Positions 20 through 16,892 of a stretch of 18,570 bases of DNA are shown here, in pieces. The DNA is taken from contig SBGC01000091.1 of assembly GCA_006226985.1 (NCBI GenBank), positions 1-18,570 on the forward strand, written 5' to 3'. Made by a program: the position numbers and the translations under genes. Source of the stretch: Bacillota bacterium (lineage in GTDB: Bacteria > Bacillota_I > Bacilli_A > Acholeplasmatales > Acholeplasmataceae). The notes below the pieces were generated by a model. The model had not been told where the DNA came from. It saw only the letters and a list, made by a program, of their open reading frames with translations, and made no database searches. Numbering within the stretch: position 1 is the stretch's first letter; each line of letters starts with the position of its first letter.

Positions 20-2857
20 ATGAACATATGGAATGCCATGAATAAAAAAATAGCCATGGCAGTGATTCTTTTTGCATCACTTTTCATCCTCATCGCTTGT
101 GGAGATGATGCACCAAAAGAATTTACTGTGACCTTTAATTCAAACGGGGGCTCAAATGTATCAGAGATTGTTGTTGAAGAAGGAGAAACATTTACACTTC
201 CTGCAGATCCAACACGGACAGGATATACCTTTGATGATTGGTATATTGATGAAGATTTAGAAACAGTATTTAACAATTTTTTAATTACACAAAATATTAC
301 TGTTTATGCAAAATGGACGATTAATACCTACACAGTCACATTTAATGTTGATGGTGGTAGTGTCGTTTCTAACGCAAGTGTTAATTATAACCAAACAGTG
401 ACTGAGCCTGTTGATCCTACAAAGGTAGGTTATACATTCGCTGGATGGTACACAGATGCAGAAAAGACAGCTCTTTTCACATTTACAACACCAGTCATGG
501 GAAACATGACACTTTATGCGAAGTGGACTGTTTTAGAATATCAAGCAACCTTTAATTTCCCTGAAGGTAATCCAATCGTGTTGACATTTGAACATGGTGA
601 TACAATTGTTCCACCAACAACACGTGAAATAGAAGGATATACATTTGTAGGTTGGTTCTTCGATGAAGCTTTCCAACAACCACTAAACGGTGGTGGCATC
701 GATAACGACTGTGATTTATATGCGCTTTATGACAAAAACGAATATACCGTTACATTTAATACAAACGGTGGTGAAGCAAAAGCATCTGAAAATGTTTTAT
801 ACGAAGAATCATTAGAAACACAAAATCCATTATATGAAGGCTATAACTTCATGGGTTGGTTCTATGACGAAGCCTTAACTGAACCATTTAGTGAAAATGA
901 TCTAATTACTGAAAATGTGACTTTATATGCAAAATGGGAACTAATTCCACCAACAGATGAAGAATTAGCATTAGAAGATATTGAATCACTTGGAATTCCT
1001 GAAACATTAGGTACAGATATTGTATTACCTGCAACAGGTGTTAATGGAACAAGTTTTACATGGTCTACAAATAAACCTCATTTAATCACTGAAACAGGTA
1101 AAGTTACAAAAGCTGGTCACGGTACAGGTGGAGAAATTGTATGGTTAACTGCATTAGTTACTAAAGGCACATATACAAATGTTCATTTATTTGAAATCTT
1201 AGTAGAAGAAGCACCAGAATCACTTGTTACATCAACAAGAAATGTACCATTTACAAATATTTCAACAGAATATTTCCCAGCCAATGGAGCGATTGATTTA
1301 TACTTCATGAATAATCAAGATGTCCCATTTGTTGACATCGCTGAATTTATGTATTTAGTGGATGGAGCAATTGACACGATTGCATCTGACCCAGTAGAAA
1401 TCATTGGTGATGATGGATTAACATACTTCGTTGTTCAATATGTTACATTCGAAATGACTGAAGTTGATATCATGACCATTCGTTACATCGTTGAATACAG
1501 TCAAGATGAAGTTGTTGTTGAATCAGATGTTTATGAAGCAATTATTGATTTCACTGAAAACACATTCTATACAGATTCATTTGATTTCTTTGATGCTATG
1601 GTTGCATCTACTTCAACAAACTTTGGTGAAGGTTTATCCTTTGGTGATTCGATCATTACTGAGGGAACAGGTATTTTTATACCGTTATCAAATTATCGTT
1701 TTGATCTTGTTATTCATGAAGATGGTGAAGAAACGTATTACTTAATGCCACTTCATGTTGCTAACTTACTCTTTGTTGGCTCAGTTTATTATGATGTTTA
1801 TTATAATGGCGATGCATTATATGGTGTTGACTCGTATCAATTCCTAGATGATGTCCCAGAAGTTGTTACAGCTAAAACAAGTTCTTACAATTCAAAATCA
1901 GCATCATTAGCAATGCGTCAAGCAACGTATGATTATTTAGTATTACTCTTCGATTTCTTCTATGGATTAAAAGAAGTGAATGGCGTTAATACATATTATG
2001 AAGTTTTTGGTGAATTTGTTAATAGCATTATGTTTGGTCGTGACACAGCGCATTATCGTGGAATTTATGACTTAACATATTCACTTGATGATTTACATAC
2101 ATACCATATTACAACAGGTTATTATGTTGAAACCGATTACGGATTCTCACTTACACTTAATGATTTAGGTCCAAGAAGCGCTGGTTACTATCAAGGTAGT
2201 TGGGCAGTAGATGATGCCATTGAACTTGCGTTCCCAAGTGGTAGACCTAATTTAAGAATTACACCAGATGGTAAAACAGCTATCGTTGTCATCAACAGCT
2301 TTACTGTGGATACTCCTAACCAATTCAGATTAGCACTCATGGATATTTCATCCAGCTATCCAAATGTAGAAAATGTTGTCGTAGACTTAACGAAGAATGG
2401 TGGCGGAAATGTCGGTGCTGTTTGGAGAACACTTGGTTATATGTGGGATGATGTGATTTATTATCATTCTCAAAATCCAACAGAAGGATCTGCTGTCTCA
2501 TATCAAATTTATGACACTTATGATGCTTACGATTACAATTGGTTTATTCTAACATCATCAGTAACCTTCTCAGCAGCAAACCTTATGGCTTCAACTGCTA
2601 AAGAACAAGGAATTGCTACAATTATTGGATTAAACAGTACAGGTGGTGCATCCTCAATTTCAGGTACAGTGCTTCCTACTGGAGATGTTATCTTTATTAG
2701 TTCAACAAACGTTATTTCTACACTAGTTGGTGAAGAATATGTTTCTGTTGAATATGGTGTTGAAGTTGATTATAGTGTTGGTAATGTCAACAACTTATTC
2801 AATGATGTTTACTTACAAGAATTAATTGACACCATCAATCAAAACAACGCAGAATAA
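20..2857 (+). CDS. Surface lipoprotein with four InlB B-type repeats, an Ig-like domain and an S41 peptidase-like domain
   Basis: 945 aa. The N-terminus is a lipoprotein signal (positive start, hydrophobic 11-26, lipobox LIAC with Cys27), so the protein should be anchored outside the membrane. Residues 34-307 hold four Listeria-Bacteroides repeats, each with a TVTFN.NGG start and a YAKW-like end (the third is degenerate). Residues 312-396 resemble an atrophied bacterial Ig-like domain (LPATG..GTSFTWST, ITETGKV). From about 685 the sequence fits family S41: LDDLHT (689-694), VVDLTKNGGG (787-796), TFSAAN with candidate nucleophile Ser851, and a GLNSTGG turn at 870-876. The lysine of CtpA-type S41 enzymes is not seen; His693 could be the partner, as in tricorn/IRBP-like members. 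Residues 400-640 I do not recognise. The start at 20 is chosen for AAGGAGA six bases upstream; ATG 38 has no comparable site. The family call is good; proteolytic activity is unproven. The promoter lies outside the window. Confidence 0.85.
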   Translation: MNIWNAMNKKIAMAVILFASLFILIACGDDAPKEFTVTFNSNGGSNVSEIVVEEGETFTLPADPTRTGYTFDDWYIDEDLETVFNNFLITQNITVYAKWTINTYTVTFNVDGGSVVSNASVNYNQTVTEPVDPTKVGYTFAGWYTDAEKTALFTFTTPVMGNMTLYAKWTVLEYQATFNFPEGNPIVLTFEHGDTIVPPTTREIEGYTFVGWFFDEAFQQPLNGGGIDNDCDLYALYDKNEYTVTFNTNGGEAKASENVLYEESLETQNPLYEGYNFMGWFYDEALTEPFSENDLITENVTLYAKWELIPPTDEELALEDIESLGIPETLGTDIVLPATGVNGTSFTWSTNKPHLITETGKVTKAGHGTGGEIVWLTALVTKGTYTNVHLFEILVEEAPESLVTSTRNVPFTNISTEYFPANGAIDLYFMNNQDVPFVDIAEFMYLVDGAIDTIASDPVEIIGDDGLTYFVVQYVTFEMTEVDIMTIRYIVEYSQDEVVVESDVYEAIIDFTENTFYTDSFDFFDAMVASTSTNFGEGLSFGDSIITEGTGIFIPLSNYRFDLVIHEDGEETYYLMPLHVANLLFVGSVYYDVYYNGDALYGVDSYQFLDDVPEVVTAKTSSYNSKSASLAMRQATYDYLVLLFDFFYGLKEVNGVNTYYEVFGEFVNSIMFGRDTAHYRGIYDLTYSLDDLHTYHITTGYYVETDYGFSLTLNDLGPRSAGYYQGSWAVDDAIELAFPSGRPNLRITPDGKTAIVVINSFTVDTPNQFRLALMDISSSYPNVENVVVDLTKNGGGNVGAVWRTLGYMWDDVIYYHSQNPTEGSAVSYQIYDTYDAYDYNWFILTSSVTFSAANLMASTAKEQGIATIIGLNSTGGASSISGTVLPTGDVIFISSTNVISTLVGEEYVSVEYGVEVDYSVGNVNNLFNDVYLQELIDTINQNNAE
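119..940 (+). repeat. Four tandem Listeria-Bacteroides (InlB B-type) repeats, protein level
   Basis: Four units of 65-70 residues lie at residues 34-100, 102-170, 172-237 and 240-307 of the lipoprotein. Each unit has a beta strand ending in NGG, a P.....GY.F.GW centre and a LYAKW end. Unit 3 lacks the NGG and ends LYALY, so it is the most diverged. Such units are known from surface proteins of Listeria and many Firmicutes and are thought to act as extracellular stalk or binding modules. Confidence 0.85.
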
Positions 2858-3513: not shown

Positions 3514-6500
3514 ATGAAAAAATTCATGACAAGTTGGCTTTTACTGTTATTCGTTGTATTCTTAGTTGCCTGCGGTGGCGGCGAAGAAACTCAAGAGTTC
3601 ACTATTACGTTTAACGTTAATGGTGGTACAGCTGTAACAGCTCTTACTGTAGAAGAAGGTACATTGGCAACTGCTCCAACAGCACCAACCAGAACTGGTT
3701 ACGTGTTCAAGGGATGGTTCGCAGATGCAGCTTTAACTACACAGTTTAGTTTCGCACTTCCAATTACAGGAGATTTAACACTGTATGCGAAATGGGCACA
3801 ACTCTTTACCGTTACATTTGAATCAAATGGAGGTAGTGCAGTTGCGTCAGTTCAAGTTGAACAAGGTCTAACCGTATTACAACCTTCAGATCCAACTAAG
3901 GCTGGATTCGTATTTGAAGATTGGTATACAACAGCAGCTTTAACAACTAAGTATAACTTTGGTGCTCCAGTTACTGCAGCATTAACATTATACGCTGGTT
4001 ATACAGCAATTGCTGAAGACCAATTCGTAGTATCATTTAACTCAAATGGTGGTACTTATATTGCTCCACAAGTTGTAACAGACGGTGATGCTGTAGCAGC
4101 TCCAACTGCTCCAACTCGCGCTGGCTTTACTTTCCAAGGATGGAATTTAGGCGCAACAGCTTATAACTTTGCTACTCCAGTTACTGCAAACATTACATTA
4201 ACTGCACAATGGCAAGCAATTCCACAATACACAGTGACTTTCCAACGTCAAGATGGTATCGTATTAAACACTGAAACAGTTTACCAAGGTACAGCAGTTG
4301 CTGAACCAGTAGATCCTGTTAGAGATGGTTACGAATTCCTTGGTTGGTTTGTTCAAGGTGAAGAAGCTCTTGAAGTTTATGATTTTGCTACACTAGTAAC
4401 TGAAAACTTAGTTATTATTGCAGTATTCAAGATTATTCCACCAGCTGTAGACACAAACGCTACTTATTTAACTTATATTGGTACAGTTACTAACTTAAAC
4501 CCATATTCAGAAACATTAGCAAATGCATCTGAACTATACACTTTAATTAGCGACTACTTATATCGTGGCGATTATGACTGGGACTTAGCAATTGAATTAG
4601 GTTTAGCTACTGAAGTTGGTGATTTCACTAATACAGCTAATCTGCCATTCACTTATGTTCCTTCAATGGCTGCTGATCTTCCATTAGACGTTAATGGTGA
4701 TGGTATGGTTTGGGAAGTTACACTTCGTGAAGACTTAGAATTCGTAGACGGTACAGCAATTGATACTGCTACATTCGATTATTCATACCAACAATTACTA
4801 GATCCAAAATTATTAAATGCTAGAGCAACTAACCTATATTCAACAGATTCACTTCCATTAATTAATGCTGAAGCATACTTTACACAATTAACTCCAGACA
4901 AAGACGAACTTGGCTACATTATGTATACAGTTGGTGAAGTTCAATTTGCTAGAGCAAACTCATTATATGGACATGTTATTGGTCATGAAGATTGGCCACT
5001 ATATTATCCAGAACAACCATTTGATACACTTGTTGGTCCTGCTCATGAGCAGTTATTAGAAGGCCAAAAAGCATATGTTGAACCTTGGGGTACAGGATAT
5101 GGTGTTGAAGGTTATGTATTAGTTGATGAATTAGACAACGCATTCCGTATGGGTACTGACAATGTTATGTACGCACCATACGCAGGCTGGACATTAGACG
5201 GTGTTGCAGTTCCTCACGTATTACCAGAAGGCGTTTCATTTAAATCTGGTGGTGCTGGATATGCAGGTGCTTTACCAGCATATATGGATGCAGCTCAAAA
5301 CTATGCAACTGTAGATGAAGATGGTCTACCAGTTGGTGGTGTTGAAACTTATGAACAAGCAACTGCAGTTCTTTGGTCAGAAGTTGGTTTCGAAGTTGTT
5401 GATCAATATACAATGAGATTCCACTTATCAGCTAAGAAGAGCCAATGGCAAGTTATGACTAACTTAGCAAGTGCTATTACTTCAGTTGTTCACCCAGCAA
5501 ACTTTGAAGCAGGTTTGATTGAAGGTGGAGCTCGTACAAACTACGGTTCTATCGACAACCCACTTGTTGCATTTGGTAGATATGAAGTTATCGAATGGCA
5601 ACCAGATGGATTCTTCAGATTCCAAAGAAATGATGATCATTTTGATGCAGCGAACTATAGAATTAAGTATATTCGTTATGATATTATTAACGACCAAAGT
5701 ACAGCAGTTAATGAATTCCAACAAGGACGTCTTGACTTAGCTGGTGCAAGTGGATCTTACTATCAAACATATAAGAATTCACCATACTTAAAACTTAGCC
5801 CTGTTACAACATTCTTCCGCTTTGCATTCTCACTTGATAGAATGAATGATGATGATCCATCAAATGATACTCCAATTATGCAATACTTAGATTTCAGAAA
5901 AGCATTATACTTTGCAACTGACCGTGAAACATTCGTTACTGACGTACGTGCTCCAGGTTTCCCAACTCATGGTATCCTTGGACCAGTCTACTTCTCAAGC
6001 GAACAAAATCCATTCTCTTATAGAGCATCACTTCCAGGTCAAGCAGTATTAGCTGATTTAGCTCCTGAAACTTATGGATATGATCCAATTATGGCTAAGC
6101 AATTATTTGATGCAGTATATGCTCAAGCAGTTGCTGATGAAGTAATCCCTGCTGATTCAGTTGTTGAAATTGAAATCGTATTCTCAGATGCTGAAACAAA
6201 CCATACAATGGCTAACTGGCTAGAAGCTACATGGGAAGAAATTTTCGGAGATAAATTCGACCTCGTTAAGAATCCAGTTCCAAGTGCTCAATTAACAGCA
6301 ACTGGTACAGGTATTTGGGATACAGGTAACTTCGACTTAACATTTGGCGGCTGGCAAGGTCTTCAATTCTGGGCACCTGGTATGTTACAAGTTTACTCAA
6401 GTGGTAGAGGCGCAGCATACATCCTAGAAGTTGGTTTCGAAACTGGTAATGCAGTTCTAGAAGTTGAACTAGGCGCTGGTAAAGCTGCTGTTCAAGCTTG

Positions 6501-6861
6501 GTTAGACGAATTATTATTAGTTGCTGAACCTACATCTGCTCAAGAAGAATATATCGACTTGTTCGAAGACTTCTTAGCTGATTTCACAGGCGACATCTAT
6601 ACTAACACTTATGACTATATTTGGGAAACTGTATATTATACAATTCTTGACTATGATCTATATGAAGGTAGAGAAGACGACTTTGACCGTATTACTGCAG
6701 CGCTTGAAGGTGAATTATTAGCTCAAATGATTAACATTCCATTATTCACATCAGTTGGCGCTACAGTTTACAGTGCACGTGTTCAATTTGAAGCTCAAGC
6801 ATACCATGCACGCATGGGTTGGGGCGGATTAAGATACATGTACTTAGGTATCATGGCATAA
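3514..6861 (+). CDS. oppA: Oligopeptide-binding lipoprotein OppA with N-terminal InlB B-type repeats
   Basis: 1115 aa; first gene of the opp operon. The lipoprotein signal ends in LVAC with Cys20, so the protein sits outside the cell and hands peptides to OppBC. Residues 28-306 form four Listeria-Bacteroides repeats. From about 317 the chain fits the SBP_bac_5 (OppA/DppA) family: the NLNPYSETLANASELYTLI start (327-345), WEVTLREDLEFVDGTAI (400-416), the FQQGRLDLAG segment (735-744) and the LDFRKALYFATDRE block (792-804). The binding part is about 800 residues against roughly 520-560 in ordinary OppA, with extra sequence around 470-620 and 970-1050. DVNGDG (392-397) resembles the start of a calcium loop, but position 12 is Thr, so I do not claim calcium binding. 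The bound peptide cannot be inferred. A stem-loop rather than a promoter separates it from oppB. Confidence 0.88.
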   Translation: MKKFMTSWLLLLFVVFLVACGGGEETQEFTITFNVNGGTAVTALTVEEGTLATAPTAPTRTGYVFKGWFADAALTTQFSFALPITGDLTLYAKWAQLFTVTFESNGGSAVASVQVEQGLTVLQPSDPTKAGFVFEDWYTTAALTTKYNFGAPVTAALTLYAGYTAIAEDQFVVSFNSNGGTYIAPQVVTDGDAVAAPTAPTRAGFTFQGWNLGATAYNFATPVTANITLTAQWQAIPQYTVTFQRQDGIVLNTETVYQGTAVAEPVDPVRDGYEFLGWFVQGEEALEVYDFATLVTENLVIIAVFKIIPPAVDTNATYLTYIGTVTNLNPYSETLANASELYTLISDYLYRGDYDWDLAIELGLATEVGDFTNTANLPFTYVPSMAADLPLDVNGDGMVWEVTLREDLEFVDGTAIDTATFDYSYQQLLDPKLLNARATNLYSTDSLPLINAEAYFTQLTPDKDELGYIMYTVGEVQFARANSLYGHVIGHEDWPLYYPEQPFDTLVGPAHEQLLEGQKAYVEPWGTGYGVEGYVLVDELDNAFRMGTDNVMYAPYAGWTLDGVAVPHVLPEGVSFKSGGAGYAGALPAYMDAAQNYATVDEDGLPVGGVETYEQATAVLWSEVGFEVVDQYTMRFHLSAKKSQWQVMTNLASAITSVVHPANFEAGLIEGGARTNYGSIDNPLVAFGRYEVIEWQPDGFFRFQRNDDHFDAANYRIKYIRYDIINDQSTAVNEFQQGRLDLAGASGSYYQTYKNSPYLKLSPVTTFFRFAFSLDRMNDDDPSNDTPIMQYLDFRKALYFATDRETFVTDVRAPGFPTHGILGPVYFSSEQNPFSYRASLPGQAVLADLAPETYGYDPIMAKQLFDAVYAQAVADEVIPADSVVEIEIVFSDAETNHTMANWLEATWEEIFGDKFDLVKNPVPSAQLTATGTGIWDTGNFDLTFGGWQGLQFWAPGMLQVYSSGRGAAYILEVGFETGNAVLEVELGAGKAAVQAWLDELLLVAEPTSAQEEYIDLFEDFLADFTGDIYTNTYDYIWETVYYTILDYDLYEGREDDFDRITAALEGELLAQMINIPLFTSVGATVYSARVQFEAQAYHARMGWGGLRYMYLGIMA
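3595..4431 (+). repeat. Four tandem Listeria-Bacteroides (InlB B-type) repeats at the OppA N-terminus
   Basis: Units lie at residues 28-95, 97-164, 170-234 and 238-306. Units 1-3 keep the NGG and the P....GY/F.F..W pattern. Unit 4 has QDG in place of NGG and ends IIAVFK. They match the repeats of the 20-2857 lipoprotein in kind, but the sequences have diverged well beyond a recent copy. Confidence 0.85.
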
Positions 6862-10455: not shown

Positions 10456-11813
10456 GCGAAAGAGTAAAAGCCCTTGAGGTCAAAAATTTAAAGCAATACT
10501 TTAAAGTTGGACATGGTAAAAGCAAACTAGTTGTTAAAGCAGTTGATAATATTTCATTTCATATTTATGAAGGCGAAGTATTTGGTTTAGTTGGTGAATC
10601 CGGATGTGGTAAAACAACAACTGGTCGTTCAATCATCAAGTTATATGATGCAACTGATGGAGAAGTATATTTCAAAGGTAAACGCATTGGTGGTGGTGTT
10701 GAAAAACAAAGAGAAGCTATCAAAGCAGCTAAACAAAAAGCTAAAGAAGAAATACTTGCTCACAAGCCAGATCAACTTAAACTTCATGAAATTAAACATG
10801 AATATCACTTAGCAGTACACGCAGCTAAAGAAGCGTATGCTCTTCAAAAAGAAGCAGCAAAGAATGAATCAGATGCTATTAAAAAACAAGAACTGTTAAC
10901 AAAAGCAGCAGAAACGAAAAAGAATGCTATAGCTGCAGCAACTGAAAAGAAAACTGCACAAACAGAAGCGCTAAAAGCTGAAATGCTAGCTAATCCAGAA
11001 AAGTATGCACACCATACAGATGAAATTAATCGCATCAACGCTGAACTTGAAGCATACATTAGCGAACAAAGAGACATCATTAAAGGCATTTTAAACGACA
11101 ATGCTTTCCGTGGTGAAACATATGAAATTATGAAGAAAATTCAAATGATCTTCCAAGATCCTATTTCTTCACTAAATCCTCGTATGACTGTTCGTGAAAT
11201 TATTGCAGAAGGTCTTCGTATTTCTGGAGTTCATGATAAAGATGAAATTACACATCGCGTTTATGAAGCATTAAATCTTGTAGGACTTGTTCCTGAGCAT
11301 GCTTTCAGATATCCACATGAATTCTCAGGTGGACAAAGACAACGTATTGGTATTGCACGTGCACTAGTTGTTAACCCTGAATTGCTCATCGCTGATGAAC
11401 CTATTTCAGCACTTGACGTATCAATTCAAGCTCAAGTTATCAACTTACTAAGAGAATTAAAAGATAAGTTAAACTTAACAATTTTATTTATTGCACATGA
11501 CTTATCTGTTGTTAAATTCTTTAGTGATCGCTTAGGTGTCATGTATTTCGGTAAAATGGTTGAAATGGGACCCGCAGAAATGGTCTTTAAGAATCCTTTA
11601 CACCCTTATACAAAATCATTACTATCTGCAATTCCACAACCAGACCCAGATTATGAAAGAACACGTAAACGCTTTAGCTATGTTCCAGCAAAAGATCATA
11701 AGTACACAGCTGAAAATCAACCATCATTTGTGGAAATTGAAAATGGACACTTTGTCTTAGCATCTCCAGATGAAGTTGAAAAAATCAAAAAGGACATGGC
11801 AAGTAAAAAATAA
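10452..11813 (+). CDS. oppF: Oligopeptide ABC transporter ATPase OppF with an inserted helical/coiled-coil segment
   Basis: 453 aa, against about 300-330 for typical OppF. It is the second ATPase of the importer and the last gene of the operon. Walker [10 protein letters not shown] (48-56), Q-loop Gln235 in MIFQDP, signature FSGGQ (291-295), Walker B LLIADE (311-316) and His349 are intact, as is the [16 protein letters not shown] tail. The extra length is mostly one block at about 83-222, rich in Lys, Ala and Glu and nearly free of Gly and Pro, as expected of long helices or a coiled coil. It sits between the first beta-sheet part and the Q-loop, where normal OppF has about 20-25 residues. 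OppF of Mycoplasma is also enlarged by insertions, so this may be a mollicute-lineage trait. A terminator follows directly. Confidence 0.93.
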
Positions 11814-11819
11814 TTTCTC

Positions 11820-11851
11820 AAAAGCTTAGTCAATTGACTAGGCTTTTTTTA
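11820..11851 (+). terminator. Rho-independent terminator of the opp operon
   Basis: A 12-bp stem (11820-11831 with 11836-11847, one T-G wobble, AATT loop) is followed by a run of T. It lies seven bases after the oppF stop. Confidence 0.9.
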
Positions 11852-11857
11852 TTTATG

Positions 11858-11885
11858 AAAAAGAAAAGGAGCTCTTTCGAGCCCC
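11858..11885 (-). terminator. Minus-strand rho-independent terminator of the small RNA
   Basis: Read on the minus strand, a 7-bp stem GGGGCTC/GAGCTCC with a GAAA tetraloop (11885-11868, one G-T wobble) is followed by TTTTCTTTTT (11867-11858). An alternative CCCC/GGGG pairing (11894-11897 with 11882-11885) would compete with the stem. Confidence 0.7.
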
Positions 11886-12025
11886 GTTCTTTTGGGGTAA
11901 CTTTTTTTAGCATCAGATCATGATGGCAGTCTGATCTGATGTTAGGTGAAGTTAAACCTTGATATTTTTTGGGAGAAAAATATTGAATGTAACGAATTAT
12001 CCAAATAAAAGGTGGAAGTTGTTAC
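11858..12025 (-). ncRNA. Candidate stand-alone small RNA with C-rich anti-Shine-Dalgarno segments
   Basis: About 165 nt on the minus strand, with a promoter (12059-12032) and a terminator (11885-11858) of its own. No gene follows on that strand, so it is not a leader. Visible folds from the 5' end: a GUAAC/GUUAC-closed arm; an 8-bp AUAUUUUU/AAAAAUAU hairpin (11962-11983) whose loop is CUCCCA; a weak AGGU/ACCU arm; a 12-bp hairpin (11909-11920 with 11932-11943); and the terminator. The segments CCACCUUUU, CUCCC, UCACCU and UACCCC are complementary to ribosome sites of the AGGTGG/GGGAG/AGGTGA kind. Firmicutes small RNAs such as FsrA, RsaE and RsaA work through similar C-rich motifs. I do not recognise the family. 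It could also be antisense or leader-like in a way I cannot see. Confidence 0.55.
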
Positions 12026-12031
12026 ACTTCA

Positions 12032-12059
12032 ATTATAAACAAAATAAAACAGTTTTCAA
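12032..12059 (-). promoter_or_regulatory. Sigma-A-type promoter of the small RNA
   Basis: On the minus strand, -35 TTGAAA (12059-12054), a 16-base spacer and -10 TATAAT (12037-12032) predict a start near 12025. The cre-like site (12081-12095) lies 21 bases upstream of the -35. Confidence 0.65.
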
Positions 12060-12080
12060 GTAAATTTTCTGTAAATTTTC

Positions 12081-12095
12081 ATGAAAACGTTTCCT
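12081..12095. promoter_or_regulatory. cre-like operator between the small RNA and suf promoters
   Basis: ATGAAAACGTTTCCT fits the relaxed cre consensus WTGNAANCGNWNNCW at all fixed positions and shares the TGAAAACG core with the site before opp. It sits just upstream of the suf promoter region on one side and of the small RNA -35 on the other, so it could affect either. Confidence 0.5.
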
Positions 12096-12120
12096 AGATT
12101 TTTCTTTTTCTAAATTAGCG

Positions 12121-12155
12121 TATAATTAGCATTTAAACATCAATTGTTATATAAT
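12121..12155 (+). promoter_or_regulatory. Probable suf operon promoter(s)
   Basis: Two perfect -10 boxes TATAAT are seen at 12121-12126 and 12150-12155. The first has only a poor T-rich -35. The second has TTAGCA (12126-12131) at 18 bases, four of six matches. I cannot decide which is used. Leaders would be about 50 or 21 bases. Confidence 0.5.
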
Positions 12156-12182
12156 AAAAATGTTGAAATCAAGGAGGTCTAT

Positions 12183-12950
12183 ATGGCAAAATTAGAAATT
12201 AAAAATCTTCATGTGTCCATTGAAGATAAAGAAATATTAAAAGGTGTTAATCTTGTAGTCAAATCTGGTGAAGTCCATGCGATCATGGGGCCAAATGGTA
12301 CAGGGAAGTCAACATTAGCAAGTGCTCTTATGGGGCATCCTAAATATCAAGTCACTGAAGGTGAAGCGTATCTCGATGGAGAAAATCTATTAGAGATGGA
12401 AGTAGATGAACGTGCACGTGCAGGTTTATTTTTAGCTATGCAATATCCAGCAGAAGTTCCTGGTGTGACAAACAGTGATTTTATGCGTCAAGCTTTGAAA
12501 GCAACTTCTGGCAAAGAAGTCGGTCTTTTTGAGTTCGCCATTAAGTATGAAAAGACAGTTGAGGAACTTAAAATGCGTGCAGATTTAGCACATCGTTATT
12601 TAAATGAAGGTTTTTCAGGTGGCGAAAGAAAGAGAAATGAAATCTTACAACTCAAGGTTTTACGTCCAAAATTTGCGATTTTAGATGAAATCGACTCTGG
12701 TTTAGATGTTGATGCGTTAAAGATCGTCGGAGAAAATGTATCAAGCTTAGTGAATGAAAACTTTGGTTGTATTCTAATTACACATTATCAACGCATTTTA
12801 GATCATATTAAACCAACCAATGTCCATATTATGATTGATGGTAAGATTGTATTAAGTGGTGGTCAAGAACTCATTGAAAAAATTGACAAACAGGGATATT
12901 TATGGATTAAAGATGAACTTGGCATTGACTTTACCGAAGGCGATGAATAA
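12183..12950 (+). CDS. sufC: Fe-S cluster assembly ATPase SufC
   Basis: 255 aa, the usual SufC length. A soluble ABC-type ATPase that works with SufB and SufD in the cytoplasmic Fe-S scaffold. Walker A GPNGTGKST (36-44), Q-loop Gln87, signature FSGGE (144-148) running into the SufC-specific RKRNEILQ, Walker B FAILDE (164-169), the DSGLDVDAL block (171-179) and His201 are present. The frame is open from a TTG at 12144, but ATG 12183, five bases after AGGAGG (12172-12177), gives the normal SufC start. It is the first gene of a five-gene operon in the Bacillus order, and its TAA overlaps the sufD ATG. Confidence 0.95.
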   Translation: MAKLEIKNLHVSIEDKEILKGVNLVVKSGEVHAIMGPNGTGKSTLASALMGHPKYQVTEGEAYLDGENLLEMEVDERARAGLFLAMQYPAEVPGVTNSDFMRQALKATSGKEVGLFEFAIKYEKTVEELKMRADLAHRYLNEGFSGGERKRNEILQLKVLRPKFAILDEIDSGLDVDALKIVGENVSSLVNENFGCILITHYQRILDHIKPTNVHIMIDGKIVLSGGQELIEKIDKQGYLWIKDELGIDFTEGDE

Positions 12951-13825
12951 TGAAAGAGTTAATGATTCAAAAAGATCATATTAAAAACACGTTACCTAAA
13001 AATTTCGAGTTTAACCATAATGAGCTCATCATACCTAAAAATATCCAATTTCAAGAACCCATCAAGATAACCATCGAAACAGATCAAATGGAAACATTTA
13101 AAATAGTTGTATCAGCTTCAACCGGTATTAAAATTATCTTAGAAATATTAAGTACATCCAATGAAGAACATGTTTATAATATTGATTTAATTGCTAAAAA
13201 CAACAGTCATGTTAAATATCTACTTGTTGGTGAGATTCAAAGCACAAAATCAACGATTAATCATACGTTCACTGCACATCGTGATGCAAAATTAGAAATC
13301 ATTGGTGGATTTGTCTCCAATGTATTAGATGCGAGAATGCATGTTGATTTAGTTGAAGAAGGCGCAGAAGTGAAGATGAGAGCTGTAGCTGTCTCATCTG
13401 ATGATAACATTCAAAATATTGATGTTTACATCACGCACAAGGCACCAAATACGTTTGGTGATATGACGAACATAGGTATCGCAAACAAACGCGGTAAAAT
13501 CATTTTAAATGGTATTGAAAAAATAGAAAAGGGAATGAAGCATGCAAATGCTTTCCAAACACTTAAAGGGATTATTACATCCGATCAAGCAATAGTTGAA
13601 GTCAATCCAATCTTACTCATTGATGAATATGATGTTAAAGCTGGACATGGCGCAACCATTGGTAAAATCGAAGAAGATGTTCTCTATTACTTAATGAGTA
13701 GAGGATTAAACAAAAAAGAAGCAGAAAAACTCATTATCAATGGTTTCTTACAACCCGTCATTGATGAAATTGATGATGAACCCTTAAGAGAAAGATTTGT
13801 AAGCCTCGTTAATTCACGTATATGA
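12950..13825 (+). CDS. sufD: Fe-S cluster assembly protein SufD, short form
   Basis: 291 aa, against about 420-440 for Bacillus or E. coli SufD. SufD pairs with SufB through a beta-helix core to form the SufBC2D scaffold. The core is clear: YDVKAGHGATIG (227-238) with His233, matching the His of E. coli SufD needed for cluster formation, and then the family end VLYYLMSRGLNKKEAEKLIINGF (244-266). The missing length is N-terminal; residues 1-40 hold little of the helical domain seen in longer SufD. No frameshift is visible, as the stop of sufC overlaps the ATG by one base, so the short form looks natural. It overlaps sufS by four bases (ATGA). Confidence 0.88.
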   Translation: MKELMIQKDHIKNTLPKNFEFNHNELIIPKNIQFQEPIKITIETDQMETFKIVVSASTGIKIILEILSTSNEEHVYNIDLIAKNNSHVKYLLVGEIQSTKSTINHTFTAHRDAKLEIIGGFVSNVLDARMHVDLVEEGAEVKMRAVAVSSDDNIQNIDVYITHKAPNTFGDMTNIGIANKRGKIILNGIEKIEKGMKHANAFQTLKGIITSDQAIVEVNPILLIDEYDVKAGHGATIGKIEEDVLYYLMSRGLNKKEAEKLIINGFLQPVIDEIDDEPLRERFVSLVNSRI

Positions 13826-15030
13826 TCGATGTCAAAAAGATTCGAGAAAATTTCATCATTTATCAAACACAACCCAAGCTTTGTTACTTGGATTCTGCTG
13901 CATCATCGCTCAAAGTTAAAACTGTTGTTGATCAAGTAAATAAGTATTATCATACACTCGGTGTTAATGTGCATCGTGGCGCATATGAACTCGCTTATGA
14001 AGCAACAAAACAATATGAAGATGCAAGAATAACAGTTAAAAACTTTATTAACGCAGAGTCGGAAGACAATATTATTTTTACACGTGGGACAACATCTTCG
14101 CTCAACTTGATCGCTAAAGGTTTTGAGCATATGTTAAATCCCGGTGATGAAATTATCACGAGCGAACTTGAACATCATTCATCGGTATTACCTTGGATGG
14201 TTGTAGCTAAATCGACAGGTGCAAAACTTGTCTATGTACCACTTACTAAACAAGGAAAAATTACCGTTGAAAATTTCAAATCTGTTTTAACATCAAAAAC
14301 AAAAGTTGTCGCATTAACACATGTATCAAATGCCATGGGTTATATGACACCAATTAAAGAGATTGCATCCATCGCACACAAACATCAAGCTGTTGTCATT
14401 TTAGATGCTGCACAATCTGTACCTCATACCAAAGTAGATGTTCAAGAGCTAGGAGTCGATTTCTTAGCATTTAGTGGACACAAAATGTTTGGTCCATCAG
14501 GTGTTGGTGTACTCTATGGTAAAACAAGTTTACTCAATCAACTTGAACCTTATGAATTTGGTGGAGAAATGGCTGATCAAGTATTTAAAGATCATTTCAC
14601 ATATAAAGATGCACCGCTTAGATTTGAAGCAGGTACACCGGTGATTAGCGGAGCGATTGGTCTTGCAGAAGCGATGAGATATATCGAATCAATCGGTATG
14701 GATAACATCGAAGAACATACAAAAAAACTCCATCAGTACACCTTATCAAAGATGAAAGACATTGACGGTATTACAATCTACAATACAGAAGCAGAAATGC
14801 CTATTATTAATTTCAACGTTATCGGTGTCCATCCACATGACATCGCGACAACACTTGATCAATATCAGATCAACGTACGTGCTGGGCATCATTGTGCACA
14901 ACTCGTTACCAAATTTTTAGATGTTAATTCAACATTGCGTGTATCATTTCATGTATATAATTCCATCGAAGATTGTGATATATTTATCAAGGGATTAAAA
15001 GAATCCATTCAATTCTTTAATGGTTTTTAG
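13822..15030 (+). CDS. sufS: Cysteine desulfurase SufS
   Basis: 402 aa. A PLP enzyme that takes sulfur from cysteine as a Cys persulfide and passes it to SufU. The family is clear from LDSAASSLK (23-31), the ELEHHSS segment (115-121) with its histidines, DAAQSVPH (195-202), PLP lysine 221 in SGHKMFGPSGVG, RFEAGTP (267-273) and active Cys358 in RAGHHCAQ. The short loop around Cys358 marks it as the SufS (group II) rather than the NifS/IscS type. The ATG overlaps the sufD stop and has no clear ribosome site, so translation is probably coupled. The paired sufU supports SufU as the sulfur acceptor. Confidence 0.95.
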   Translation: MIDVKKIRENFIIYQTQPKLCYLDSAASSLKVKTVVDQVNKYYHTLGVNVHRGAYELAYEATKQYEDARITVKNFINAESEDNIIFTRGTTSSLNLIAKGFEHMLNPGDEIITSELEHHSSVLPWMVVAKSTGAKLVYVPLTKQGKITVENFKSVLTSKTKVVALTHVSNAMGYMTPIKEIASIAHKHQAVVILDAAQSVPHTKVDVQELGVDFLAFSGHKMFGPSGVGVLYGKTSLLNQLEPYEFGGEMADQVFKDHFTYKDAPLRFEAGTPVISGAIGLAEAMRYIESIGMDNIEEHTKKLHQYTLSKMKDIDGITIYNTEAEMPIINFNVIGVHPHDIATTLDQYQINVRAGHHCAQLVTKFLDVNSTLRVSFHVYNSIEDCDIFIKGLKESIQFFNGF

Positions 15031-15040
15031 GAGAAAAGTT

Positions 15041-15490
15041 ATGAATCAAATTGAACATCTTTATCGACAAGTCATTATGGATCACTATAAAAATCCGAAA
15101 AATAAAGGATTAGTTGCTAACCCAGCTTATTTGACGATTCATTTAAATAATCCAAGTTGTGGTGATGAAATGACCGTTCAAATGCATGTTAATAATGACC
15201 AAATTGTCGATATTAAACATCAAGGAACAGGATGCTCAATTTGTTGTTCAAGTGCAAGTGTGATGAGTGTTACACTCAAAAACCATACACTTGATGAAGC
15301 AAATCAAATCATTCATGAATTTTATGAAATGATTAAAGGATACCCTTATAACCCTGATATTCTCAAGGGAGATGCTATCGTTTATCAAGGAGTTGCTCAA
15401 TTTCCAGCACGTATCAAATGTGCTACACTCGCTTGGAAAGCCATTGAGCAAGGTATGATTAAAATAAAGGAGGAACAACCAAATGGATGA
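15041..15490 (+). CDS. sufU: Zinc-dependent sulfur transfer protein SufU
   Basis: 149 aa, matching Bacillus SufU (about 147). It accepts sulfur from SufS by zinc-ligand swapping. The four zinc ligands are present: Cys40 and Asp42 in NPSCGD, Cys65 in GTGCSIC and Cys127 in RIKCATL. The insertion that separates SufU from IscU is present ([18 protein letters not shown]). Two further cysteines follow Cys65 (GCSICC, Cys68 and Cys69), where GCSIS followed by a non-Cys residue is usual. An upstream ATG at 15020 would give an odd extension. ATG 15041, six bases after AGGAGA (15029-15034), matches family length. It overlaps the sufB start by eight bases. Confidence 0.93.
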
Positions 15491-16892
15491 CAATAAAAAG
15501 AAAATAGACGCCATCGTTGGTGACTATAAGTTCGGATTTAAGACGGAATCAAAATCAGTATTTGATACCGGAAAAGGCCTTAACGAAGATATTCTTCGTA
15601 TTATTAGCAAGAACAAGAATGAACCTGAGTGGATGTTAGATTTCCGCTTAAAATCATATAGAAAGTTTTTAGAATTAAAGAATCCTACCTGGGGTCCAGA
15701 TTTATCGTTTATTAACTTTGATGAATTCACCTATTTTATTAAAGCAAGTGAAAGAGCAGAAACTAGCTGGGATGAAGTACCAACTGCCATCAAAGACACA
15801 TTTGAAAAATTAGGTATTCCTGAAGCAGAAAGAAATTTCTTAGCTGGGGTTTCCACGCAATTTGAAAGTGAAGTCGTTTATCATAATACACAAAAAGAAT
15901 TAGAAGATTTAGGCGTTATTTACGTCGATACAGATACTGCACTTCGTGAGTATCCAGACTTAGTCAAAAAGTATTTTGGCACAGTTATTCCCTATGCAGA
16001 TAACAAATATGCAGCACTAAATAGTGCAGTATGGAGTGGTGGATCATTTATTTATGTTCCAAAAGGTGTTAAAGTTAACAAACCATTACAATCTTACTTC
16101 AGAATTAACTCTGATCAAATGGGTCAATTTGAACGTACACTCATCATTGTTGATGAAGGTGCATATGTAAACTATGTTGAAGGCTGTACAGCACCTGTAT
16201 ATACAAAAGATTCACTTCATGCAGCGATTGTAGAAATCATTGTTGAAAAGAATGCGACGTGTCGTTATACGACCATTCAAAACTGGTCAACTAATGTTAT
16301 TAACCTTGTTACAAAACGTGCATTTGTTTACGAAAATGGACATATGGAATGGATTGATGGTAACATCGGTTCAAATGTCAACATGAAATATCCTTCATGT
16401 GTACTTCTCGGTGAACGCGCAAAAGGAACAACGATTTCAATTGCATTTGCTGGCAAAGGACAATGGCAAGACTCAGGAGCAAAAATGATTCATGTTGCAC
16501 CAAACACTACATCAACGATTATTTCTAAATCCATCTCACGTGGTGGTGGTAAAGTGAACTATCGTGGTAAAGTAGACTTTGGTAAAAAAGCTAAAGGTGC
16601 TAAAGCCCATGTTGAATGTGATACCATCATTTTAGACGACTACTCGTTCTCAGATACGATTCCCTATAATTCTGTAAGAAATAGCGATGTATTCTTAGAA
16701 CACGAAGCAACCGTTTCAAAAATCTCTGAAGAGCAATTATTTTATCTCATGAGTCGCGGTCTTACCGAAGCAGAAGCAACCGAAATGATTGTCATGGGAT
16801 TTATTGAACCATTTGCTAAAGAACTACCCATGGAATATGCAATCGAGCTCAATCAATTAATTAAACTCGAGATGGAAGGTTCAATCGGTTAA
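15483..16892 (+). CDS. sufB: Fe-S cluster assembly scaffold SufB
   Basis: 469 aa, full family length. It is the central scaffold of the SUF complex, building the nascent cluster with SufD. Key residues of E. coli SufB are matched: Cys235 in YVEGCTAP, Cys379 in HVECDT, and Glu406-His407-Glu408 in [10 protein letters not shown]. The family end, [23 protein letters not shown] (418-440), is clear. AAGGAGG (15467-15473) precedes the ATG by nine bases, so sufB has the strongest ribosome site of the operon after sufC. It is the last gene and is followed by a strong terminator. The sufC-D-S-U-B order equals that of Bacillus. Confidence 0.96.

Follow-up and report, generated by a model that had tools for sequence, protein, structure and literature searches.

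Evidence for a conserved small RNA gene beside the suf operon in the Acholeplasma group

A conserved RNA gene with its own promoter and terminator is almost certainly present on the minus strand at 11858-12027 of the window, the whole stretch of 18,570 nucleotides that was analysed, judging from sequence signals and from the relatives of the gene. The RNA lies back to back with the genes for iron-sulfur cluster assembly (suf), and it is classed as a new RNA family whose mode of action is probably of a familiar kind. Repression of translation in trans is a plausible activity for such a molecule, given its layout.

The RNA gene and its distribution

The gene and its immediate surroundings comprise the following features:

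11858 to 12027, minus strand: small RNA gene of about 165-170 nt (fold z -6.99, covariance-model match, relatives)
12059 to 12032, minus strand: promoter TTGAAA-16-TATAAT, with 11 of 12 matches
12059 to 12054, minus strand: -35 box TTGAAA, part of that promoter
12032 to 12037, minus strand: -10 box TATAAT, exact just upstream of the RNA in 29 of 40 sequences
11858 to 11885, minus strand: intrinsic terminator with a GAAA loop and a T-tract at 11867-11858; 39 of 40 sequences have a T-run at their 3' end
12183 to 16892, plus strand: divergent sufC-sufD-sufS-sufU-sufB operon (Pfam ABC_tran, SUFBD_core, Aminotran_5, NifU_N and SUFBD_core)

An earlier note on this DNA had described a TTGAAA-N16-TATAAT promoter with a start near 12025 and a GNRA-loop terminator ending near 11858. 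Both signals were located, and its coordinates hold with an error of only a few bases. The promoter ranks best among the 15 promoter-like sites in 11000-13000, a region for which shuffled sequences predict 8.2. Pairing of U12026 in relatives suggests that the RNA starts at about 12027-12025. At the other end, a stem of seven pairs (11885-11868) with a GAAA loop is followed by TTTTCTTTTT. The note had seen no gene downstream on the same strand; the next gene in the window is convergent and encodes an opp ATPase. A 12-pair terminator that closes the opp genes (window 11820-11847, plus strand) faces the terminator of the RNA.

How widely is this RNA distributed? A DNA search of 61 genomes found a 20-base core around CUCCC that is identical in many genomes of the same genus. 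A covariance model was built from 15 homologues picked by this core and a downstream GCCATC, and it included the pairs of hairpins P1 and P2 and of the terminator. The model matches the window at 11859-12028 with 119.9 bits, the window being one of the 15 seeds. In the order to which the window belongs it matches an RNA in 40 of 160 genomes, in the family in 31 of 88 and in the genus in 19 of 20; in the twentieth genus genome (G007), the contig with suf ends before sufC. In a class-level sample the RNA was found in 14 of 395 genomes, all of them within the order. The carriers are wall-less bacteria of the Acholeplasma group: assemblies of Acholeplasmataceae or Acholeplasmatales, a Tenericutes RIFOXYA12 assembly and Tenericutes bacterium MO-XQ. 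The strict filter missed two diverged copies beside sufC, one in G105 (model E 6.5e-4) and one in G026 (E 0.097, recognised by motifs only).

A single model match was found in 38 of the 40 carrier genomes. In Tenericutes bacterium MO-XQ, two copies of the RNA with its suf neighbours lie 98,930 bases apart (loci L204 and L205) and have identical model scores, which reflects either a segmental duplication or an assembly artefact. In G031, a full match stands at the start of a contig (L218) and a second, partial one on the sufB contig (G031:C26:13018-13122), and the two are probably one gene cut by assembly. A scan of the genome contigs yielded at least 119 matches, most of them by chance. Phage copies of the RNA were rejected: nine pattern matches were seen in viral contigs, with no model match below E 0.2.

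Rfam 15, searched at gathering thresholds, gave no match in the window and none in 18 homologous loci. The 21 loose matches around the RNA were all under the cut-offs, the lowest E value being 0.17. This agrees with the earlier description of a small RNA gene outside the catalogued families. No published account of the RNA was found among the best-ranked 6-20 of 33 to over 22,000 papers in a mostly open literature, which is a weak test of absence; transcription start sites of A. laidlawii were mapped earlier (PMC5138195).

Fold and conserved loops

The elements of the proposed fold are as follows:

11988 to 12026, minus strand: hairpin P1, arms 12026-12021 and 11993-11988, with CCACCUUUU from 12015 (covariation and arm-swap)
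11962 to 11984, minus strand: hairpin P2, an A/U stem with loop CUCCCA at 11975-11970
11944 to 11959, minus strand: tentative short stem P3, AGG 11959-11957 with CCU 11946-11944
11949 to 11954, minus strand: 5' strand UAACUU of a long-range helix, partner 11903-11898 (arm-swap)
11898 to 11903, minus strand: 3' strand AAGUUA of the same helix, partner 11954-11949 (arm-swap)
11911 to 11941, minus strand: hairpin P4, a 10-bp stem with loop GACUGCCAUCA at 11931-11921 (arm-swap)
11894 to 11899, minus strand: UACCCC, the site of a second CUCCC in relatives

The window RNA folds at -45 kcal/mol against -22.1 +/- 3.3 in 200 shuffles (z -6.99), none of which reached as low a value. In a model-fitted alignment of 44 matches (40 distinct rows), which is biased toward its own structure, 15 of the 20 modelled pairs vary at both positions, compared with 7.0 in shuffles, and none of 500 shuffles has as many. 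The covariation score is 0.356; shuffles give 0.142, and slid pairs do not exceed 0.085. All seven pairs of P1 change on both sides in this model-fitted alignment.

An alignment-free test, here called arm-swap, compares two duplex energies, that of the arms native to a species and that of arms exchanged between species; it used 37 of the 40 sequences, near-duplicates having been removed. P1 reaches z -12.4, with its own arms better in 36 of 37 sequences, and P4 reaches z -19.2 with 37 of 37. The long-range helix gives z -4.0 with 37 sequences, -3.6 with 28 and -3.7 with 22, and -4.2, -4.3 and -4.4 when the windows stay clear of P4. Its own arms beat the swapped mean in 27 of 37 sequences, and ten sequences thus give this helix no support. 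Among seven other region pairs, six have |z| no higher than 1.5; for the remaining one (z -5.3), the base of P4 is taken to extend into the region that was tested. One control for the pseudoknot excised every pair around the P4 loop and, with them, the helix in question (z -2.1, -0.9 and -1.1), which made it unusable.

By these comparisons, P1, P4 and the long-range helix that encloses P4 covary, which answers the search for covarying base pairs in relatives that the earlier note had proposed. The stem of P2 is paired in 96.3% of cells, and it gives no covariation support because its inner A/U pairs are nearly invariant. A pseudoknot, which would arise if P3 forms beside the long-range helix, is likely but weakly supported: the crossing stem P3 reaches arm-swap z values of only -2.0, -2.5 and -2.5, and its pair variants were judged by eye.

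The P2 and P4 loops are near-invariant. CUCCC stands in the P2 loop of 40 of 40 sequences, the model seeds having been chosen partly by the CUCCC core, and GCCATC stands in the P4 loop of 39 of 40, with seeds chosen partly by GCCATC. The P1 loop is of the CCUUU/ACUUU type in 40 of 40 by a loose pattern. These counts leave out L205 (the identical second copy of G073), the duplicates L075, L118 and L149 and the partial second match of G031, and they predate the copies in G026 and G105.

The earlier note had listed four C-rich segments and had placed CUCCC in the loop of an 8-bp A/U hairpin, where the fold indeed exposes it. Two of the four, CCACCUUUU and CUCCC, are conserved loops. UCACCU is partly paired and includes the 3' arm of a small stem, and at the place of UACCCC, between P4 and the terminator, 18 of 40 relatives carry a second exact CUCCC. 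The list omitted the GCCAUC loop of P4. Loss of the hairpins and C-rich loops in close relatives had been named as grounds for abandoning the proposal; both are conserved, and the likeness to C-rich loops of the Firmicutes type is borne out across relatives.

By sequence, the GCCAUC loop is as conserved as CUCCC yet not of Shine-Dalgarno (SD) type, and we know of no such non-SD loop in other Firmicutes sRNAs. It may be a protein site. Two pairing roles were rejected for it. Its complement, GGATGGCAG, occurs at 136 sites; of the 30 inspected, one is the complement of the RNA itself, and the remaining 29 include no start codon. Pairing of the P4 loop is slightly stronger with sufC start regions (-8.8, n=38) than with 101 other ORFs (-7.0), but the loop is kept in relatives whose sufC starts ATGTC.

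Neighbourhood and the region between the divergent promoters

The suf side of the neighbourhood is constant. The nearest upstream ORF is a divergent sufC, with the SufC signature, in all 39 loci with upstream sequence, and SufB/D-like and SufS-like clusters come next in all 37 loci with enough sequence. SufB is present in 126 of 160 genomes of the order, and suf is thus more widespread than the RNA. From model-negative genomes, 20 suf regions were taken, and sufC could be judged in 14 (G007, G068, G060, G070, G041 and G039 were not judgeable). At 12 of these 14, no RNA was found within 480 bases upstream; suf therefore does not need the RNA. The sufB homologue of one carrier, L354 (G035), has three in-frame TAA codons.

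The other side varies. The first downstream gene encodes an S41-peptidase lipoprotein, a leucine-rich-repeat protein, a member of one of two families without a Pfam match or, in the window, an Opp component. The downstream ORF is on the strand of the RNA in 28 of 40 loci and on the opposite strand in 12, including the window; L201 was scored as opposite, though a same-strand ORF overlaps its RNA end. An Opp-type ATPase, recognised by a best match among the opp genes of the window, is encoded on the other strand at most about 4 kb downstream in at least 26 of 40 loci, a lower bound because some stretches end early. All six Opp-ATPase representatives checked have the oligo_HPY domain. The gene is mostly 2-3 kb from the RNA; only in the window and in L227 does no other gene come between. 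The location between opp and suf given by the earlier note thus holds fully on the suf side, while opp is often nearby but adjacent in just these two.

Across loci L190-L228, suf, the RNA and opp recur together, with varying genes between the RNA and opp, a stretch that is possibly an insertion hot spot. The opp operon of the window includes an unusual fusion, an SBP_bac_5 oligopeptide-binding protein with four N-terminal Listeria-Bacteroides (Flg_new) repeats (3514-6861, plus strand). Similar repeats occur in a 945-aa lipoprotein at 20-2857 (plus strand), whose C-terminal part looks S41-type protease-like by eye. A lipoprotein with Flg_new and S41 parts comes after the RNA in L189.

Between the two promoters, two further elements are conserved:

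12082 to 12094, minus strand: cre-like motif GGAAACGTTTTCA, a possible operator; exact CGTTTTCA stands upstream in 34 of 39 loci
12115 to 12131, minus strand: suf-side promoter element TGCTAATTATACGCTAA; in the genus, 15 of 20 genomes have exact GCTATTTATATGCTAA here

The GGAAACGTTTTCA-type motif is conserved on the RNA side together with AT-rich inverted repeats, and the GCTATTTATATGCTAA repeat, from which the window copy differs at two positions, is conserved on the suf side. Exact GCTATTTATATGCTAA was found nowhere but at the RNA/suf locus in 20 genomes, with two one-mismatch sites elsewhere. Exact GGRAAACGTTTTC has eight sites in 21 genomes, all at the RNA locus; the window copy misses it by one base. 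With up to one mismatch, AAACGTTTTCAATGAAAA has one site elsewhere in 20 genomes; with up to two, it has 40 sites elsewhere against 13 for a backward control, and weaker sites may therefore exist elsewhere. Where suf stands without the RNA, the RNA-side motif is lacking too (12 of 12 loci); G026 (as AACGGTTTC) and G105 have it. Thus, this motif goes with the RNA. That two motifs of 12032-12131 are exact solely at the RNA locus makes a dedicated regulator possible.

Which signal might control the RNA? Its upstream motif resembles a LacI-type cre box, and carbon control is possible. The link to carbon state suggested in the earlier note gains from the conservation of this motif, while exact GGRAAACGTTTTC sites are restricted to one locus; given the two-mismatch counts, a CcpA/cre regulon shared with other genes is conceivable. 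Fur-family proteins are encoded in 18 of 20 genus genomes; judged by eye, we recognise no Fur box.

Possible functions and known relatives in kind

The RNA has its own promoter and terminator, a conserved unpaired C-rich motif and no constant downstream gene, as would be expected of a trans-acting sRNA with C-rich loops. We tentatively propose, at a little short of an even chance, that it masks ribosome-binding sites without Hfq and is linked to iron-sulfur or iron supply. Its C-rich loops would pair with the purine-rich ribosome-binding sites of several mRNAs and so stop their translation. The layout of the RNA points to masking of SD sequences in trans, and its synteny with suf to the iron-sulfur link. 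The RNA would most likely act upon a change in iron-sulfur demand or iron supply, because its gene and suf share a regulatory region; for example, iron might be spared by lowered synthesis of iron-using proteins. Hfq was not found in any of 20 genus genomes by a search that did find it in 5 of 14 controls, E. coli and B. subtilis included. When duplexes were scored for 265 and 266 start regions, taken from parts of two genomes, none of 22 ortholog pairs stood out as a clear target; each sample contained one Fe-S-like protein by a crude motif, so that the scoring has little power. A sugar-type ABC ATPase, named by eye, scored -13.0 and -5.8 with P2 and -7.3 and -13.1 with P4, inconsistently between the species.

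Several sRNAs offer comparisons. RoxS/RsaE is a C-rich Firmicutes sRNA, from which the suf-side RNA is set apart by having no Rfam match. One parallel in motifs is with the LhrC family of Listeria (LhrC1-5, Rli22 and Rli33-1), which carries UCCC both in the loop of a hairpin and in an unpaired segment, binds SD regions and represses oppA (PMC8079631). Pairing of LhrC with its targets was described there in 2021 as independent of Hfq; a 2026 paper reportedly places Hfq with LhrC5 on ferritin (PMC13350326). The suf-side RNA likewise has UCCC-type motifs in a loop and in a single-stranded stretch. However, LhrC RNAs are given as multicopy molecules of 105-121 nt with two stem-loops, whereas the RNA described here is about 165 nt long and mostly single-copy by model match, and it has a long-range helix, the GCCAUC loop and a constant place at suf. 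A link to peptide uptake is a live alternative, since LhrC represses oppA and opp genes recur near the RNA.

Two other systems share the theme of iron. IsrR of Staphylococcus aureus has three C-rich regions able to pair with the ribosome-binding sites of iron-protein mRNAs (PMC11257911). Compared by description, it resembles the suf-side RNA in these regions, and its targets include Fe-S proteins, the link proposed here; it differs in being Fur-regulated and, in that description, in having no suf linkage. FsrA of Bacillus subtilis is presented as an Hfq-independent iron-sparing sRNA (PMC12871923), but at 84 nt, under Fur control and with FbpABC helpers it is unlike the present RNA, which Rfam does not match. 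The uORFC-13-1 motif is a structured RNA reported solely from Acholeplasma and environmental sequences (PMC8632094). It is a cis-element with a uORF upstream of aroF, in contrast to an RNA at suf with no constant downstream gene.

Could the RNA instead bind a protein or another RNA, its invariant loops titrating an RNA-binding protein or serving as a sponge? The near-invariant GCCATC, which matched no start codon at the inspected sites, and the elaborate scaffold would suit such a role, but the loops CUCCC and CCUUU belong to the anti-SD type and we know of no candidate protein partner. This reading is unlikely. A constitutive, housekeeping-like RNA that acts on the ribosome or RNA polymerase would fit the single match in 38 of the 40 carrier genomes, and the P1 loop CCUUUU resembles the 16S anti-SD tail. 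Such a role is quite unlikely given the patchy distribution (40 of 160 genomes, with absence at 12 of the 14 suf loci that could be judged in genomes without a model match) and the conserved motif upstream, which suggests regulation.

Regulation of suf in place, by transcription of the RNA from a competing divergent promoter, is very unlikely: the divergent arrangement in 39 of 39 loci and the conserved region between the promoters would allow it, but covariation and loop conservation within the RNA indicate selection on the product. It is highly improbable that the RNA is a cis-acting leader or attenuator. The 28 same-strand downstream ORFs would permit this, but the 12 opposite ones, the window among them, and the several unrelated gene families downstream do not, and no constant same-strand gene of the kind expected of a leader or riboswitch was found. 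Behind the RNA, a promoter-like match of at least 10 of 12 occurs at 15 of the 28 same-strand loci, but at only 3 of the 28 does it beat 95% of shuffles. A small protein, for which ORFs of at least 15 codons in 36 of 40 sequences and a 29-codon ORF common to L189-L191 might speak, was rejected as extremely unlikely, because GCCATC is read in all three frames (in peptides with TAIH, LPST and CHP), the ORF starts vary among relatives and the stems covary.

The preferred reading remains masking of ribosome-binding sites in trans. A bolder form of it, which is doubtful, would make the RNA a dedicated iron-sulfur riboregulator that works without Hfq, is probably pseudoknotted and is fixed at suf across two families, with anti-SD loops and GCCAUC as a second, non-SD seed or a protein site. 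To our knowledge, conserved trans-acting RNAs of mollicutes are little known. The covariance model of the suf-side RNA is a family model that databases can use, and an RNA locked to suf and supported by covariance offers a testable entry to post-transcriptional control without detectable Hfq in the Acholeplasma group.
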